Shown: piece by piece, positions 2,932 through 34,646 of the stretch
How positions within the stretch are numbered: the stretch's first letter is position 1
Layout: every line of letters begins with the position of its first letter
Assembly (NCBI GenBank): GCA_947474995.1
Contig: CANJNJ010000041.1
Location: forward strand, 1 to 37,652
Source: Opitutaceae bacterium
GTDB lineage: Bacteria > Verrucomicrobiota > Verrucomicrobiia > Opitutales > Opitutaceae
DNA: 37,652 nucleotides
Direction of reading: 5' to 3'
Notes under the pieces: model-generated
Seen by the model: the letters and a program-made list of their open reading frames with translations, nothing else
Databases searched by the model: none
Told to the model about the DNA's origin: nothing
Translations under genes and position numbers: made by a program

Positions 2932-4092
2932 ATGCAAGAATCGCAACGCCTGCGCGCCGTTCAGTCGCCCATCATTCCTGTCATCGCGGATTTGATTCGC
3001 AGCTGCCCGGGCACGATTTCCCTTGGCCAGGGCGTCGTTAACTACGGTCCGCCGCCGTCAGCCCTCGAGCAGATGAGCCGGTTTCTCGCCGATCCGGCGA
3101 ATCACAAGTACCAGTCCGTCGCCGGCCTGCCGGCCCTGCTCGCGGCCATCGAGTCCAAGCTCGCGGCGGAAAACGGCCTGCGCGTCGGCCCGGAAAATCG
3201 CGTGATGGTGACGGCCGGCGGCAACAACGCCTTCCTCAACGCGGTGCTCGCGATCGCGGATCCCGGCGACGAGATCATCCTGCCGACGCCCTACTACTTT
3301 AATCACGAAATGGCGGTCACGATGGCGAACTGCCGGCCGGTGCTCGTGCCGACGGACGAGAACTACCAGCTGCAGCCCGACGCGATTCGCGCGGCGATCA
3401 CCGCGCGAACGCGGGCGGTCGTGACGGTCTCGCCCAATAATCCCACCGGGGCCGTGTATTCCGCCGCGGCGTTGCGCGAGGTGAATCGGCTTTGCGCGGA
3501 ACGCGGGATCTATCACATCAGCGACGAGGCCTACGAGTATTTCACCTACGACGGCGCGGAGCATTTCTCCGCCGCGTCATTGCCCGGCAGCGCGGCGCAC
3601 ACGATTTCGCTCTATTCGCTTTCGAAGGCCTACGGCTTTGCGAGCTGGCGGATCGGCTGGATGGTCTTTCCCACGCCGCTCGAGGCCGCGATGCGAAAAA
3701 TCCAGGACACGATCATGATTTGTTCGCCGGTGGTCTCGCAATTCGCCGCCATCGGCGCGCTGCAGGCCGGCCGCGCCTATGCGCAGGAAAAACTGCGCGA
3801 CATCGCCGAGGTGCGGGCCACCGCGCAGGCCCGGCTCGCGCAGGTCGAGGGCTGCCTCGTGCCGCCGGCGAAGGGCGCGTTTTATTTCCTGCTGCGCCTG
3901 GCGACCAAGCGCCACCCGATGGAAATGGCCGAGCGCCTGGTGCGGGAGCACGGCGTCGCCGTCATTCCGGGCAACGCGTTTGGGATTACGGAAGGCTGCC
4001 AACTGCGCGTCGCCTACGCCGCCTTGCCGAAAGCCACCGCGACGGAGGGGCTCGATCGGCTCGTGCGGGGACTGAATGCGCTGCTGCGGTGA
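2932..4092 (+). CDS. PLP-dependent aminotransferase, class I/II
   Basis: The protein is 386 aa, typical for fold-type I aspartate-aminotransferase-like enzymes. Visible motifs: SPNNPTGAVY (Asn170 contacts the cofactor), SDEAYEYF (Asp198 and Tyr201, pyridine-ring contacts) and SLSKAYGFASWRIGW, in which Lys232 is the Schiff-base lysine and Arg240 a phosphate ligand. C-terminal RVAYA carries the arginine that normally binds the substrate carboxylate. It should transfer amino groups between an amino acid and a 2-oxo acid in the cytoplasm; the donor is not readable. ATG 2932 was preferred to an upstream TTG (2902), because 2902 begins in the low-complexity spacer just after the inverted-repeat element and homologous starts are shorter. 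It converges on the DoxX-like gene, with a strong palindrome between them. Confidence 0.93.
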   Translation: MQESQRLRAVQSPIIPVIADLIRSCPGTISLGQGVVNYGPPPSALEQMSRFLADPANHKYQSVAGLPALLAAIESKLAAENGLRVGPENRVMVTAGGNNAFLNAVLAIADPGDEIILPTPYYFNHEMAVTMANCRPVLVPTDENYQLQPDAIRAAITARTRAVVTVSPNNPTGAVYSAAALREVNRLCAERGIYHISDEAYEYFTYDGAEHFSAASLPGSAAHTISLYSLSKAYGFASWRIGWMVFPTPLEAAMRKIQDTIMICSPVVSQFAAIGALQAGRAYAQEKLRDIAEVRATAQARLAQVEGCLVPPAKGAFYFLLRLATKRHPMEMAERLVREHGVAVIPGNAFGITEGCQLRVAYAALPKATATEGLDRLVRGLNALLR

Positions 4093-4125: not shown

Positions 4126-4198
4126 ATGTTCGTAGTTCCGCCTTCAGGCGGAATCTGAATGAACCAGGCCTTCCGCCTGAAGGCGGAACTACGAACAT
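4126..4198. repeat. Perfect 28-bp-arm palindrome between convergent genes
   Basis: The arms 4126-4153 and 4171-4198 are exactly complementary over 28 nt, with a 17-nt loop. Each arm itself contains the near-palindrome TTCCGCCTTCAGGCGGAA. A related, more degraded copy is at 8626-8707, and a sister family with GGCTTCAGCC in place of GCCTTCAGGC lies inside a gene at 10374-10431. Positioned between the stops of the aminotransferase (4092) and the DoxX-like gene (4217), it may work as a two-way transcription terminator, but its dispersal points to a repetitive extragenic palindrome. Confidence 0.9.
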
Positions 4199-8625: not shown

Positions 8626-8707
8626 TGCTTGTAGTCCCTCCTTTAGGCGGAATCCGGTCCGTCTATATCCGCAGCCAAACCTTCCGCCTGAAGGCGGAAC
8701 GACAAAC
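8626..8707. repeat. Dispersed palindrome related to 4126-4198
   Basis: The arms around 8631-8652 (GTAGTCCCTCCTTTAGGCGG) and 8682-8707 (containing TTCCGCCTGAAGGCGGAA) are imperfect complements around a ~30-nt loop. The right arm matches the arm of the palindrome at 4171-4190. It lies between the methyltransferase gene and the 1163-aa gene, both rightward. It could affect read-through but is most simply a copy of the same repeat family. Confidence 0.8.
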
Positions 8708-8786
8708 CCGACTCAAATCGTAGAGTGAAGCATCCCACCGCGTCTTGCTTCGACCACCGGGTTTTCTACGCTCACCACCTCTCCCC

Positions 8787-11700
8787 ATGAATCGTCGCAT
8801 CCTTCGTTCTGCCGTCATGTGCGCGGCGCTTGCCTTCACCGCCCTGTCCAGCCGGGCCGCCGAGCCCGACGACGAGGACGAAAAGCCGGCCCCGATGGGA
8901 AAAATTCTGAATCCCGGCACGCGGGACGCGACGCCCAGCGTCAGCCCGGCCTCCAACGAGGGCCAGCAGGCCATCCAGCGGATGACCGTCCCGGCCGGCC
9001 TCGAACTCAAGCTCTGGGCCGCCGAGCCGATGCTCGCGAATCCGGTCGCGTTCAATTTCGACGAACGCGGCCGCATCTTCGTGGCCGAGACCTATCGCTA
9101 TCGCTCCAGTGTCCTCGATATCCGCGACTACATGTGGATGCTCGAGGACGAGCTCGCCAACCGCAACGAGGCCGACTGGATGTCCACGTTGCGCCGCCGC
9201 TTCGGCGAAGAGGGCCTCAAGGAGCTTTCGATCGAAAGCGAACAGGTCCGCCTCCTCGAAGATTCCCAGGGCACCGGCGTTGCGGACAAATCCGTGGTCT
9301 ACGCCGGCGGTTTCAACGGCCCGCTCGACGGCATCGCCTCCGGCGTCCTCGCCCGCCGCGGCAAGGTCTGGTTCACCAACATTCCCAGCCTTTGGATGTT
9401 CGCCGGTGACGACCGCGCCGCCGTCCGCACCGAGCTCAGCCGCGGGTACGGCGTTCGCTTCAACTTCACCGGCCACGATCTCCACGGCCTCATCTTCGGC
9501 CCCGACGGCAAACTCTATTTCAGCTGCGGCGATCGTGGCTCGTCCGTGCCCACCAAGGAAGGCGGCGTGCTCAACGCCCCCGACATGGGCGCGGTGTTCC
9601 GCTGCAACCCCGACGGCACACAACTGGAAATGTTCGCCTGGGGCCTCCGCAATCCCCAGTCGCTGCTCTTCACGGAAAACGGCGACCTCATCACGGGCGA
9701 CAACGACTGCGACCACGGCGACGAAGAGCGGCTGGTTCACGTGGTCGAGGGCGGCGACAGCGGCTGGCGCATCGGCTATCAGTTCGCCCCGCTCGGTCGC
9801 GCCGGCCCTTGGAATACCGAGCAACTCTGGTGGCCGCGCCACGAGGGGCAGAGCGCCGCAATCATTCCTCCCATCTGCAACATCGAGGATGGTCCGTCGG
9901 GCATCGCCTACTATCCCGGCACCGGCCTGAACCCGACCTATGCCGGCAGCATCTTCGTCACGCATTTCAAGGGCACGATCGCCAAGAGCGGCATCTATAC
10001 CTACAAGGTTAAACCCAAGGGGGCGACCTACGACATCGCCGACGCGAAGCCGTTCATGACCGCCGCACTGCCGACCGACGTGAAATTCGGGCCCGATGGC
10101 CGGCTCTACACCTCCGACTGGGCCGATGGCTGGCCGAAGTCCAAGCGCGGCCGCATCTACACCGTTTCCGATCCCAAGCACGTCAACGACCCCCTCATCA
10201 AGGAGACGAAGCAGCTCATCGCCTCCGACTGGACCGCCAAGTCCGCCGCCGAACTCACGACGCTCCTCGGCCACGCCGACTGGCGCGTGCGCCTCGAGGC
10301 GCAATACACGTTCGCCGAGCGCGGCGCCGCGAGCATTTCCACCCTGGCGGCAGCGGCCGCGGGGTCCGGGTTGGTAGTCCCGGCTTCAGCCGGTTCCGAT
10401 TCCGCCAAGCCCCGGCTAAAGCCGGAACTACAAACGTACTCCCGGCTGCACGCCATCTGGGGGCTCGGCCAAATTGCGGCCAAAAGCGTTGACGCCCTCG
10501 CCCCGTTGCGCGGCCTCTTGCACGACAGTGACCCGGAGGTGCGGGCGCAATCGGCCAAAGTCTTGGGCGAACATCCAACCGCAAGCGACGCCGACGCGTT
10601 GATCGTGGCTTTGCGCGATTCCGCTCCGCGGGTGCGCTTTTTCGCCGCCCAAAGCCTGGGTAAACTCGGCCGGCCGGAAGCGGCCGGCCCGTTGCTGGCG
10701 CTGGCGCGGGAGAACAACGACGTCGACAACTACGTGCGCCACGCGGTCGTCATGGGCCTCGTGGGCAGCAACAATCTCGCCGCCCTCGCGACGGGAGCAA
10801 AGTCCACTTCCCGCGCCGAGCGGATGGCCGTGCTCCTCGCCTATCGCCGGCTGGGCCGCGCGGAAATCACCCCATTCCTCACGGATGTGGATCCGTTGCT
10901 GGTCCGCGAAGCCGCCGTCGCCATTAACGACGCGCCGATCAATGGGGCGCTGCCCGCGCTCGCGGCGATGATCGATCAGCCCCTGACCGATGAGCCGATT
11001 CTCTTCCGCGTACTGAACGCCCATTTCCGGCTCGGCCAGCCGGCCAACGCCGCCGCCCTCGCCCGTTACGCCGCGCGGACCGACGCCCCCGCCAAAATGC
11101 GGGCCGAGGCGATCGCCCAGCTCGCGCTCTGGCCCACGCCGCCGCAGCGCGATCGGATCGTAGGCGTTTACCGCCCGCTCGCCGACAAAACCCGCGATCG
11201 CGCAATCGCCGTCCATGCCCTCGAGGCCGTTCTCCCCGGCCTGCTCGCGAGCACGACTCCCGCCGTGGTGGAAACGGCGGCGCTGAAAGTCCTGCAGGAC
11301 CTCGAAATCGCGGGTGCCGCCAACACGCTCTTCACGATGGTCGCGGACGCCGCCCAGTCCGGCGAAACCCGCGCGGCCGCCCTCAACGCCCTCGACAAAA
11401 TCAAGGACCCGCGCCTCGCCGACGCCGTCCAGACCGCCGGGGCCTCGACGTCCTCCACCCTGCGGCTCGCGGCGCTGCCCATCGCGGCTCGGCTCTCGCC
11501 CGACACCGCGGCCCCCGTTCTCGCCCATCTCGTGGCCCGCGGCACGACCGAGGAAAAAAAGAACGCCTTGCGCGCCCTCGGCAATCTCAAGCACCCCACG
11601 GCCGACTCCCTGCTGACGGAACAACTCCGCCAGCTCGCCACCGGCAAGGTTGAACCCGCCATTCAGCTGGAGCTCGTCACCGCCGCCGAACGGCGCAGCG

Positions 11701-12278
11701 ACCCGGCGATCAAAGACCTGCTCGCGAAACGGGAGGCGGCCCTGGCCGCCAATCCCGATCCGCTCGCCCCGTTCCGCGTAGCCTTGGCTGGCGGCGACGC
11801 GAAGCGCGGCGAGCGCATCTTCAACAACCAGCCCACGCTCGCCTGCGTCCGCTGCCATCGCGCCGGCAACGCCGGCGGTGACGCGGGTCCCAATCTGGCC
11901 GACGTCGGCGCGCGGAACAACCGCGAGTACCTGCTCGAATCCGTCGTCAAACCCAACGCGAAGATCGCGCCGGGCTTCGACACGATTGTGCTCACCCTGA
12001 AATCCGGCGGCACGGCCGCCGGCGTCGTTGCCCGCGAGACCGCCGACCTGATCGCGCTGCGCAACACCGAGAGTCAGGTGGTCGAAATCAAGAAGTCCGA
12101 CATCGCCAAGCGCGACGGCGCGCCCTCCTCGATGCCCGAAATCTACGGGACCATTCTCACGAAGACGCAGCTGCGCGACGTCGTCGAATACCTCGCCAGC
12201 CTGACAAAGAAACAGGAGCGGATCGACGACGACAAACCGCGCGCCCTCCGCGGCCTCCCGGTAGTGGCCAAGCGCTAA
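8787..12278 (+). CDS. PVC-type secreted propeller/HEAT-repeat/cytochrome c protein (putative membrane-bound dehydrogenase)
   Basis: The product is 1163 aa from ATG 8787. Order of parts: signal peptide (MNRRILRSAVMCAALAFTALSSRAA), an acidic linker, and a sugar-dehydrogenase-like beta-propeller (residues ~60-470, with NFDERGRIFVAETYRY, HDLHGLIFGPDGKLYFSCGDRG and GDNDCDHGDEERL). Next is a long array of HEAT/Armadillo-type helical repeats (~490-970), then a C-terminal Pirellula/Verrucomicrobium-type haem domain with CVRCH at Cys1020-His1024, followed by GGDAGPNLADVG. Such proteins are widespread in PVC bacteria and are thought to oxidise carbohydrate-type substrates in the periplasm; the substrate is unknown. 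Oddity: residues ~529-550 are encoded by a palindromic repeat (10374-10431) inserted in frame between two HEAT units. Upstream codons to 8745 are open but precede the signal peptide. Confidence 0.9.
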   Translation: MNRRILRSAVMCAALAFTALSSRAAEPDDEDEKPAPMGKILNPGTRDATPSVSPASNEGQQAIQRMTVPAGLELKLWAAEPMLANPVAFNFDERGRIFVAETYRYRSSVLDIRDYMWMLEDELANRNEADWMSTLRRRFGEEGLKELSIESEQVRLLEDSQGTGVADKSVVYAGGFNGPLDGIASGVLARRGKVWFTNIPSLWMFAGDDRAAVRTELSRGYGVRFNFTGHDLHGLIFGPDGKLYFSCGDRGSSVPTKEGGVLNAPDMGAVFRCNPDGTQLEMFAWGLRNPQSLLFTENGDLITGDNDCDHGDEERLVHVVEGGDSGWRIGYQFAPLGRAGPWNTEQLWWPRHEGQSAAIIPPICNIEDGPSGIAYYPGTGLNPTYAGSIFVTHFKGTIAKSGIYTYKVKPKGATYDIADAKPFMTAALPTDVKFGPDGRLYTSDWADGWPKSKRGRIYTVSDPKHVNDPLIKETKQLIASDWTAKSAAELTTLLGHADWRVRLEAQYTFAERGAASISTLAAAAAGSGLVVPASAGSDSAKPRLKPELQTYSRLHAIWGLGQIAAKSVDALAPLRGLLHDSDPEVRAQSAKVLGEHPTASDADALIVALRDSAPRVRFFAAQSLGKLGRPEAAGPLLALARENNDVDNYVRHAVVMGLVGSNNLAALATGAKSTSRAERMAVLLAYRRLGRAEITPFLTDVDPLLVREAAVAINDAPINGALPALAAMIDQPLTDEPILFRVLNAHFRLGQPANAAALARYAARTDAPAKMRAEAIAQLALWPTPPQRDRIVGVYRPLADKTRDRAIAVHALEAVLPGLLASTTPAVVETAALKVLQDLEIAGAANTLFTMVADAAQSGETRAAALNALDKIKDPRLADAVQTAGASTSSTLRLAALPIAARLSPDTAAPVLAHLVARGTTEEKKNALRALGNLKHPTADSLLTEQLRQLATGKVEPAIQLELVTAAERRSDPAIKDLLAKREAALAANPDPLAPFRVALAGGDAKRGERIFNNQPTLACVRCHRAGNAGGDAGPNLADVGARNNREYLLESVVKPNAKIAPGFDTIVLTLKSGGTAAGVVARETADLIALRNTESQVVEIKKSDIAKRDGAPSSMPEIYGTILTKTQLRDVVEYLASLTKKQERIDDDKPRALRGLPVVAKR
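10374..10431. repeat. Palindromic element inserted in frame within a coding sequence
   Basis: The arms 10374-10393 (GTAGTCCCGGCTTCAGCCGG) and 10412-10431 are complementary at 18 of 20 positions, with an 18-nt loop. The element follows the layout of the intergenic palindromes at 4126 and 8626 (GTAGT, then a self-complementary block, then AACTAC). It is translated as VVPASAGSDSAKPRLKPELQ, a hydrophilic segment between AAAAAGSGL and TYSRLHAIWGLG, where a HEAT linker would be expected. The reading frame is kept. Confidence 0.85.
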
Positions 12279-19609: not shown

Positions 19610-21124
19610 ATGCGAACACCAGCCACGCAGAAAATGGCCTCCGCCGTAGCGCCGGTCTCCGACCGGCGTTGCTTCGGCATTCGGCCGAGGCGTTGGTTGC
19701 CTACTTCCCTACGCCGTTCAGAGACCGGCGCTACTTCGGTCAGCTTGGCCGGCATATTGGCGGCTCTATTTCTCGGTGGCTGCGCAACGACCCAAACAAG
19801 CGCGCCCGCCTCGCCCCCCGACGCCACCGCCGCGCAGTTGACGGCGCGCTCGCTGCAAGACCCCGGCCTGCGGCGTTTTCTCGCCGCCAATCTGGGACAC
19901 GAGCCGGCCACGTGGAATTTGGAAACGCTGAGCTGGGTCGCGTTCTATTATCATCCGTCGCTCGCCGTCGCCCGCGCGCAATGGGCGACGGCGCGGGCCG
20001 TCGCAACCTCGGCGGGCGTGCGACCGAACCCGACCATTGCCCTGGCCCCCGGCTACAACACCACCCGCGAAGCTGGGATTTCGCCGTGGTTTCCGGCGGT
20101 GAATTTTGATTTCCTCCTGCAGAGCACGCGCAAGGTTGACCTGCAGCGCGCCGCCGCGGACGCGGACGCCGAGGCCGCGCGACTGGGCATCTACACCGCC
20201 GTGTGGCAAGTCCGGAAGGATCTCCGCGCCGCGTTGCTCGATGCGACCGCCGCGAGCCGGCGCGAGGCCCTGCTGCGCACGCAGGCCTCCGGGCAGGCGC
20301 GCCTGCTCGCGCTGCTCGAGCAACGTCGGGCCGCGGGTGCCATTGCGCCCACCGAGGTTTCCTTGGCGCGGACCGCTTTGCTGCGGGCCGAAGCCGCCGC
20401 CGCGGATGCGCTCAGCCAATCCGCCAATGCCCGCGCCCGCATTGCCGCCGCGTTGGGCCTGCCGCTCGAGGCCCTGGACGGAATTTCTTTCGCCGCTCCC
20501 GCCGCTGGCACCGTTCGCGCGAGTGCGGAACTGGCAACCGCCCGACAGCACTCGCTGCAAACGCGCGCGGATGTCCTGGCCGCCCTCGCGAAATACCAAG
20601 CGGCGCAAGCGGCGGTTGAACTGGCGGTCGCCAAGCAGCAGCCGGATTTTCACCTCGGCCCCGGCTACCAATGGGATCAGGGCGCGAACAAATGGAGCCT
20701 GGCCCTGACGTTCGAGCTGCCGATTTTTCACCACAACGAGGCGCCCGTCGCCGAAGCCATCGCACGGCGCGCCGAAGCGGCCGCGCAGTTCGAGGCGACG
20801 CAAGCCCAGGCGCTGGCGGCAATCGACAGTGCCCTGGCCGCGGTCAAAGCCGCCGCCGCGCAACTCGGGCACGCGCAAAAACTGCGGGCGGAAATCGAAA
20901 AGCAAAACGCCGTCGCGCGCCGTCGCTTCGAACTCGGCGGCGCCGATCAAGTGGAAGTGCAGTCCGCCCAACTCGATCTCGCGACCACGGACTCCCTGCT
21001 CGCCGACGCCGAGGCCGCCGCCGCGCAGGCCGCGGGACAATTGGAAGACGCCTTGCAGGTGCCGTTCACCGACCTCGCCCTGCTCGCCAAGGGCAACACC
21101 GACAGTTCCCACCCGACGCCATGA
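19610..21124 (+). CDS. TolC/CusC-type outer-membrane efflux lipoprotein
   Basis: The product is 504 aa from ATG 19610, with the two outer-membrane-factor repeats: LSWVAFYYHPSLAVARAQW and long Ala-rich helices, each ending in a QSxxxLxxARxxYxxG-like stretch (RRFELGGADQVEVQSAQLDLA). A lipobox LGGC puts the acylated cysteine at Cys58. It should form the trimeric outer-membrane channel of the RND pump encoded next. The adaptor ATG overlaps its stop (ATGA at 21121-21124). The 44 residues before the hydrophobic signal core are unusually long and are mostly encoded by a palindromic repeat (19646-19734). Translation might instead begin at TTG 19697 inside the repeat, giving an ordinary Arg-containing signal peptide. 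Confidence 0.88.
   Translation: MRTPATQKMASAVAPVSDRRCFGIRPRRWLPTSLRRSETGATSVSLAGILAALFLGGCATTQTSAPASPPDATAAQLTARSLQDPGLRRFLAANLGHEPATWNLETLSWVAFYYHPSLAVARAQWATARAVATSAGVRPNPTIALAPGYNTTREAGISPWFPAVNFDFLLQSTRKVDLQRAAADADAEAARLGIYTAVWQVRKDLRAALLDATAASRREALLRTQASGQARLLALLEQRRAAGAIAPTEVSLARTALLRAEAAAADALSQSANARARIAAALGLPLEALDGISFAAPAAGTVRASAELATARQHSLQTRADVLAALAKYQAAQAAVELAVAKQQPDFHLGPGYQWDQGANKWSLALTFELPIFHHNEAPVAEAIARRAEAAAQFEATQAQALAAIDSALAAVKAAAAQLGHAQKLRAEIEKQNAVARRRFELGGADQVEVQSAQLDLATTDSLLADAEAAAAQAAGQLEDALQVPFTDLALLAKGNTDSSHPTP
19646..19734. repeat. Palindromic element overlapping the signal-peptide region of the TolC-like gene
   Basis: GTAGCGCCGGTCT (19646-19658) and its exact complement AGACCGGCGCTAC (19722-19734) flank a loop with further short inverted pairs such as CCGGTCTCCGACCGG (19652-19666). 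If translated from ATG 19610 it encodes APVSDRRCF through ETGAT, a charged stretch foreign to a signal peptide. Its sequence family differs from those at 4126 and 10374, but the overall design is the same. Confidence 0.8.
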
Positions 21125-28587: not shown

Positions 28588-29022
28588 TAGCCCGTATCCC
28601 TCACGCTTTTCGCGAAGATGTTTTTGTCCCAGAGCGCACCGAGGTCGGGCCCCGAGTTCACCGAGCCAAACCCGCTGTCTTACTCGGTGGTTTCTGTGGC
28701 TGGGCTCCGTGTCCTCTGTGACTCCTGCCTTGGTTTGATTCAGGTGTGCTAATATCGATCCGGATCGTTCAGGTTTACGACGATTTCCAAGCCCCAAACC
28801 AGTGCACCGGAGACCAAACCGAGGACAAGCCGAGCTCGATCCCGGCCATTCCGATTTCTCCGGTCTCTGCCCGGCCTCGGATTGAACTCCTGGGCCTAGC
28901 CAGGGTGGTTCGTTCCACGATTTCGAGGCGCCACCCGGTCGAGGAATCATTTCCGGACCGCCGGTCAATGTTTTGGCGGCTCCTTTGGTTGCGGCCCCGC
29001 GCCACGTTAGGAATTTTCCGGG
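28588..29022. repeat. Long dispersed non-coding repeat, copy B
   Basis: This is the partner of 712-1165, in direct orientation 28 kb away. The hairpin arms corresponding to 750-767 and 829-846 are at 28626-28643 and 28705-28722. The core 28778-28892 has two differences from copy A. Both end near GAATTTTCCGGG. It lies between the convergent ends of the MFS gene and the 851-aa gene. A 137-codon leftward frame runs across it but is not kept in copy A beyond 81 codons. Confidence 0.85.
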
Positions 29023-29028
29023 CTAGGA

Positions 29029-29078
29029 TCGATCTCACGATCCATTGGCCGCGCACGGAGTGCACGGCCCACCCGGTA
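29029..29078. repeat. Half-copy of the TCGATCTCACG-loop palindrome family
   Basis: TCGATCTCACG (29029-29039) and a 32-nt block (29047-29078) match exactly the loop and right arm of the palindrome at 34453-34533 (its right arm and flank at 34507-34538). The left arm is absent; the preceding sequence is the end of long repeat copy B. It appears to be a truncated or broken copy. Confidence 0.75.
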
Positions 29079-34452: not shown

Positions 34453-34533
34453 GGTGGACCGTGCGCTCCGCGCGCGGTCAGGGTTGGCCTCGATCTCACG
34501 TGCGATGGCCGCGCACGGAGTGCACGGCCCACC
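34453..34533. repeat. Palindrome with TCGATCTCACG loop (full copy)
   Basis: The left arm 34453-34480 (GGTGGACCGTGCGCTCCGCG...) is an imperfect complement of the right arm 34506-34533. The loop includes TCGATCTCACG (34490-34500). A second full but diverged copy is at 37198-37284, and a half-copy at 29029-29078. It lies between the LarA-domain gene and the aldolase-family gene, within what would be one transcription unit. Confidence 0.8.
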
Positions 34534-34646
34534 CGGTATGCCTTCGGTGGGTTTTGGCCTGACGTATTCCGAGACGTCAGCAGCGGCGCAGCGATGAATG
34601 ACACCCCCGGGGCCATCGTGCGACTTTGACCAAGGCTCCATTCCCT

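Follow-up and report, generated by a model that had tools for sequence, protein, structure and literature searches.

GTAG-tagged REP elements occur in the PVC superphylum, and intragenic copies have been reported from Opitutus terrae (Di Nocera et al., 2013, PMC3733652). According to that report, intragenic GTAG REP dimers and groups encode 20–30 amino acids, the recB genes of X. campestris and X. oryzae hold different REPs at roughly one position, and REPs in other genes lie at different sites (PMC3733652). In Pseudomonas fluorescens, REP doublets (REPINs), i.e., inverted repeats with a spacer and a predicted hairpin, are described as an extragenic population (PMC3116915). Among the palindromic elements (RPEs) of Rickettsiales, which measure 84–192 nt in the relevant rows of the R. 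japonica table, different groups were noted in orthologues at identical or neighbouring positions, and the authors named both an insertion hotspot and common origin as explanations, leaning to the latter (PMC3767692). RPE-4 and RPE-6 carry the tag CGTC and are described without a link to transposase genes (PMC3733652). Among the matches listed, in which subscription journals are sparsely covered, no title or opening of an abstract dealt with how translated REPs of Verrucomicrobiota decay or are selected. A first-pass annotation of the DNA studied here knew of no comparable case in Verrucomicrobiota, a statement overtaken by the intragenic O. terrae elements reported in 2013 (PMC3733652). Repeats translated in this way have been described before, and the recurrence of insertion sites is the part of the present results that is of specialist interest.

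The element concerned lies in the window (i.e., the whole stretch of 37,652 nt that was analysed), which is contig 41 of an Opitutaceae assembly of 5.24 Mb in 261 contigs, 96% complete (genome G000), from an uncultured relative of Opitutus. Its parts, its host gene and two further copies of the same family are the following.

10370 to 10435, plus strand: REPIN within the host gene, its two REP arms GTAG-tagged and set head to head
10374 to 10393, plus strand: left REP arm, GTAG followed by a palindromic stem, encoding the variable part VVPASAG
10412 to 10431, minus strand: right REP arm, ending in CTAC on the plus strand and encoding RLKPELQ
8787 to 12278, plus strand: host gene for a 1163-aa PVC-type heme-binding CxxCH protein with TIGR02604 and TIGR02603 matches
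4128 to 4196, strand not applicable: further member of this REPIN family, 69 nt long with perfect arms, outside called genes
8626 to 8707 (approximately), strand not applicable: longer member of this family, lying outside called genes upstream of the host gene

The palindrome in the host gene, first put at 10371–10437 with a length of 58 nt, is real but spans 66 nt. Its calculated folding energy (DNA parameters) was −18.2 kcal/mol as opposed to −10.7 ± 2.07 kcal/mol for shuffled sequences, none of which (0 of 200) folded as well. The unit is a REP doublet, since either arm alone is a GTAG-tagged palindrome; each has GTAG at one end of a palindromic stem, as in the REP superfamily, and the two oppose each other across a spacer in a hairpin-capable arrangement, as in REPINs. 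The design is shared, as had been claimed, with the copies near 4126 and 8626, the former having perfect 28-nt arms. Tag, a palindromic stem (here TTCCGSCTTYAGSCGGAA), head-to-head dimer, numerous and mostly intergenic copies with some in genes, and phylum are all common to this family and the GTAG REPs of the O. terrae report, which gives 24 family consensuses (PMC3733652). Doublet, spacer and hairpin are likewise those described for P. fluorescens REPINs, from which the present family differs in sequence and in that one copy is predicted to be translated (PMC3116915). With RPE-4, RPE-6 and RPE-7 the element shares location of palindromes in genes, a conserved frame and the presence of different groups at one locus (PMC3767692), whereas its tag is GTAG rather than the CGTC of RPE-4 and RPE-6 (PMC3733652). 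An earlier comparison with RPEs was apt as to in-frame insertion into genes, but membership was rejected on the tag and the element is a GTAG REPIN. Other repeats noted in the window were a 300-nt direct repeat, 89% identical, at 712–1011 and 28588–28887 (28 kb apart), an exact 33-nt direct repeat at 29046–29078 and 34506–34538, and, between called genes at 19641–19739, a pair of inverted GTAG REPs that belong to another type (GTAGCGCCGGTCTCCGACCGGCG).

The host frame was open throughout from 8745 to 12278, in agreement with an earlier description of the gene as otherwise continuous, and initiation at the Met at 8787 gives 1163 amino acids. The protein comprises a TIGR02604 N-terminal domain, HEAT repeats in its middle and a TIGR02603 heme-binding domain, and its N-terminus suggests that it is exported. 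Read in frame, the REPIN forms residues 543–564 of the frame from 8745 (529–550 from the Met), i.e., about 22 codons specifying LVVPASAGSDSAKPRLKPELQT; the expected in-frame reading was thus found, although the peptide is not specifically hydrophilic and is slightly longer than the 20 or so residues first supposed. An AlphaFold2 model of residues 471–806, run with 37 homologues (mean pLDDT 91.4), predicted helices at 513–539 and 560–578 with high confidence and, between them, a loop of low confidence (block pLDDT 61 and 57). Left arm and spacer occupy this loop between two HEAT helices in the model, and PELQT of the right arm opens the second helix, with which the conservation of the right arm described below is consistent. 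The solvent-exposed linker proposed earlier corresponds, then, to a modelled inter-helix loop, and exposure would be expected from the loop itself.

Membership of the palindrome in a dispersed family, as proposed earlier, was evident from 298 genome-wide matches to the pattern GCCGGAACTACRAAC with up to 2 mismatches, compared with 43 for the reversed control; at the same threshold, the arm pattern gave 7 matches in the window as opposed to 1.4 expected. A covariance model built from 18 copies detected the family in nine of 27 genomes of the genus, with at least 150 matches on both strands of G000, 69 in G021, 24 in G007, 8 in G018, 6 in G010, 2 each in G005, G014 and G017 and 1 in G015; the same model gave none in G025. 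Within 737 kb of the source genome (100 stretches, mostly around copies and Y1 genes, together with the window) 166 elements were detected, 132 of them paired REPINs, and of these 86 were exactly 69 nt long and 103 had a length divisible by three. In view of this uniform length, the REPIN may replicate as one unit. Each paired copy had one to four stop-free frames out of six, frames 1 and 2 of either strand being open in 89–105 of the 132 copies and frame 3 in 4–8. With a length that is usually a multiple of three and one or more frames free of stops, a whole copy can be read through.

Location within a gene was nevertheless exceptional for this family. Thus, with genes called by a home-made codon-usage script (coding fraction 0.84), 125 of the 132 paired REPINs in the surveyed 737 kb were intergenic, 6 overlapped a gene end and only one, that at 10370–10435, lay within a gene, a count that decayed in-gene copies would escape because of the gene caller and because the stretches were picked around well-matching copies. 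The intergenic REPINs were distributed between co-directional (71), convergent (30) and divergent (18) genes, with 6 at stretch edges. Eight single-arm matches inside genes, with 2–3 mismatches, were dropped as chance. A general scan for GTAG palindromes returned 165 (reversed control, 27), of which 10 were inside genes and, apart from those at L167 and L213, were judged to be chance. The palindrome at L167, the other clear in-gene case, belongs to a different family (GTAGCGCCGGTCTCCGACCGGCG), has a stem that recurred in the data, and lies in what we take to be an FdhA-like molybdopterin oxidoreductase. At L213 (positions 3034–3093 of that locus, on G000 contig 11), an end-overlapping copy of the window family provides the start of a presumably DUF1549-like protein. 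This protein, exported by its look, begins with the window family in G000 (MFVVPASAGCRSFRLKAELQT...) and with a different GTAG REP (MKADRELAPVAPVSDRRHASRR...) in G021 (L284, about 1306–1390), a hydrophobic stretch following in each case; a similar REP-encoded N-terminus was noted at L260.

Seven Y1_Tnp (PF01797) genes were present in the source genome. Inverted GTAG palindromes of their own families were noted at both ends of two of these (L035 and L037) and at one end of a third (L036), and none of the seven, in a genome 96% complete, had a REP of the window family alongside. Neither was a RAYT adjoining this family found on extension to 56 Y1 loci (7 own, 29 and 20; 54 genes, L123/L361 and L130/L359 being counted twice, and part of those present in the 27 genomes), in which respect the family differs from the P. 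fluorescens REPINs as described (PMC3116915). Unpaired arm matches with 3 mismatches near Y1 genes at L034 and L359 were set aside as chance. Among relatives, at least one GTAG palindrome adjoined RAYT-like Y1 genes at L343, L348, L357 and L360. Because RAYT-like genes adjoin GTAG REPs of other families, the window family is, by analogy, probably moved by a RAYT (Y1 transposase) also.

A search of genome contigs for homologues of the host gene yielded 42 loci, in assemblies labelled Opitutaceae, Opitutae or Verrucomicrobia, and the 41 that spanned the insert site were aligned. Absence of any REP-like insert from 35 of the 41 identified the segment as an insertion, and the opposite pattern, the same segment conserved in all distant orthologues, was not seen. 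The nearest homologues were 72–75% identical, and among homologues at that distance an exact empty site in a close relative was not found. The insertion was, however, not the lone fresh event that had been supposed, since two sister species (L069 and L038), which form a clade with the window (support 100/99), carry a decayed form of it. Their insert, one codon shorter than that of the window, agrees with it in frame and in its right end, and although the palindrome has decayed, KPELQ of the right arm is retained (RQKPELQTY as opposed to RLKPELQTY in the window). Between L069 and L038, pN/pS was 0.23 for the insert and 0.21 for the remaining gene, from which it follows that purifying selection acts on the inserted peptide as it does on the remainder of the protein. 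The nine right-arm codons differed at seven synonymous positions and at no amino acid. Such retention of KPELQTY with synonymous changes only indicates that the insertion is old and evolves as the remaining protein does; identity of the two inserts was 75%, and 45 of 217 equal-sized windows elsewhere were no better. Sister-species decay of an intragenic copy and a test of selection on its peptide are features of the present analysis that do not occur in the passages of the O. terrae report considered here (PMC3733652). The best overall explanation, which we hold with considerable confidence, is that a REPIN was inserted before the species of the window split from those of L069 and L038, that it was kept in the HEAT loop, and that its peptide is selected.

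The DNA of the window copy, in contrast with the age of the insertion, looks young. Thus, only 0.54 of four-fold sites were identical between the window and L069/L038, compared with approximately 0.47 calculated from base frequencies for saturation, and yet the REPIN arms of the window stand at the family consensus. Codons GTA, CTA and TCA accounted for 4 of 22 in the window insert as opposed to 6 of 1155 elsewhere in the gene. A fresh insertion on top of the fossil should have lengthened the segment, and the lengths are nearly equal; the window copy may have been overwritten from another copy or may be maintained at the DNA level.

Overwriting of this kind bears on a wider reading, possible but rather doubtful as a general account, according to which each loop holds an old REP that lineages later replaced in place with their own family, by a process like gene conversion or driven by transposase. 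The shared right end and near-equal length of the window and sister inserts, together with the freshness of the window copy, would fit such turnover. Other occupants were noted at the same HEAT loop. L053, the next relative of the window clade (support 89/86), has an in-frame GTAGGTCAGGTCTCAGACCTGAC there, L062 has GTAGGGCTGGTCTCCGACCTGCC, of which L064 carries a decayed form, and L052 has GTAGGTCAGGT followed by a stretch without a clear palindrome. The REP of L053 is of a different family from that of the window and yet its GTA codon lies, as in the window, 20 codons after the AER anchor, which would likewise fit turnover; the loop may thus have been occupied at first by a family other than that of the window. 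On the other hand, the corresponding distance is 17 codons in L062 and 15 in L052, i.e., starts 3 and 5 codons earlier, and the insert is absent from 35 of 41 HEAT loci, for which turnover would need several losses. With up to 2 mismatches, these families numbered 47 (L053), 55 (L052), 16 (L062) and 3 (L064) in their own genomes, and gave 0 matches in the reversed control of each genome and 0 in both G000 and G025; abundance at home and absence from the genome of the window favour repeated occupation or replacement over slow divergence. An off-site GTAG palindrome at about residue 389 of L051 and minus-strand matches near the HEAT site in L067 and L072, all from a second palindrome rule, were judged to be chance.

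A similar pattern was noted in the FdhA-like gene, for which loci from 13 of 15 other matching genomes were aligned. GTAG REPs or REPINs in G007, G014 and G018 start at the codon at which that of G000 starts, with a stem unlike that of G000, which again would fit turnover, and the insert was absent from the other 10 of the 13 loci, including G021 and G025, which again would call for several losses. The G000 stem has its loop in common with the stem of the other three genomes, and the families may be related.

Further genes came from a GTAGGKC-type family, covered at 30 loci from six genomes. Of its 45 arm matches at these loci, 12 were in called genes, 28 were intergenic and 5 were overlapping; the 12 genic matches sit in 10 genes, two of these genes being the HEAT gene again, and VG.VSD was present in 9 of the 10. 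This type was far more often genic in relatives (12 of 45) than the window family was in G000 (1 of 132), as noted at L245, L246, L249, L250, L254, L262 and L266. From eight further REP-bearing genes, two were picked as recognisable proteins, which we take to be an SNF2-like helicase and an ATPase-like protein. Among 25 other loci of the former, the same loop was occupied in G014 and G010 by REPINs from a different GTAG family, and among 18 other ATPase-like loci that spanned the site, G018 and G011 had a further REPIN there, tagged GTAG and GTGG in the former and GTGG in the latter. Apart from L299 and L304 with their GTAG REPINs, further species have other inserts in the SNF2 loop, as judged by eye: L320 has a stretch resembling a hairpin, and L321 and L322 have repeats that are GTTGAGGGTTGAGAGTT-like or similar. 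By eye also, FdhA of G014/G018, SNF2 of G010/G014, ATPase of G011/G018 and HEAT of L062/L064 looked like pairs of common descent, so that some REP carriers would not count as separate events. In each of the four genes one site is used repeatedly, which sets these results apart from the genes other than recB in the earlier survey (PMC3733652).

Recurrence at one codon might also arise if a transposase preferred certain DNA sites and struck them independently of protein tolerance, a choice of target that we regard as improbable. Consistent with it are the common start codon in four FdhA-like genes and in the window and L053, and the fact that all GTAG-tagged palindromes found under one rule in the four gene sets, 10 rows (3 of them those by which the genes were picked and 7 new), were within 15 residues of the site; single-arm rules of this kind miss, on the plus strand, the REPINs of the window and L062. 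Off-site palindromes in the four genes numbered 7, 0, 9 and 2 and had other tags, compared with 20, 1, 12 and 2 in the reversed control. However, a common sequence before GTAG was not seen by eye, and among rows free of REPs three of the four sites ranked high for length variation in 30-residue windows (top 5.0% for FdhA, 3.8% for SNF2 and 4.4% for the ATPase), so that tolerance accounts for them, whereas the HEAT site was only in the top 23.8%. Thus, tolerance of length change accounts for much of the site recurrence, and in-place exchange may still contribute in view of the exact codons shared (FdhA; window and L053) and of the fresh window copy.

Retention of the hairpin for a role in DNA or RNA (pausing, stability or attenuation), the peptide being incidental, appears less probable again. 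The near-consensus palindrome of the window, at near-saturated synonymous sites, would suit such a role, as would the distances of intergenic copies from genes, the median being 35 nt from 3' ends as opposed to 108 nt from 5' ends, but in L069 and L038 it was the palindrome that decayed and the peptide that was retained, and no Rfam match was present in the window at gathering thresholds. That the segment is an old, ordinary part of the protein resembling the repeat by chance, or else an assembly error, deserves scarcely any credence: the assembly is in 261 contigs, where repeats can mislead, and the peptide also occurs in two relatives whose palindrome is no longer intact, but the arms agree with the consensus of the family, the segment is missing from 35 of 41 homologues, and a homologous peptide in two other species would not be produced by misassembly.

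We therefore return to a REPIN kept in the HEAT loop with its peptide under selection. A copy would have come to lie in frame in the loop before the species of the window split from its two relatives. Selection would remove most copies that land in genes and would retain those in loops already tolerant of length change. The retained peptide would then have been held by ordinary selection at the protein level, its right arm becoming the first turn of the next helix, and the window copy may later have been refreshed from another copy or kept up at the DNA level.

The present results indicate that a protein can gain a selected segment from a mobile palindrome that is normally extragenic, and the recurrent loop sites offer a natural test of the question raised for Rickettsia, i.e., hotspot or common origin. 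As a tentative suggestion, loops in conserved proteins of this genus might be standing docks whose occupant is exchanged in place for the REP family active in each lineage. If so, the mobile element resident in a lineage would rewrite a peptide cassette and leave its frame intact, and in the window an old, selected cassette would have been rewritten recently.
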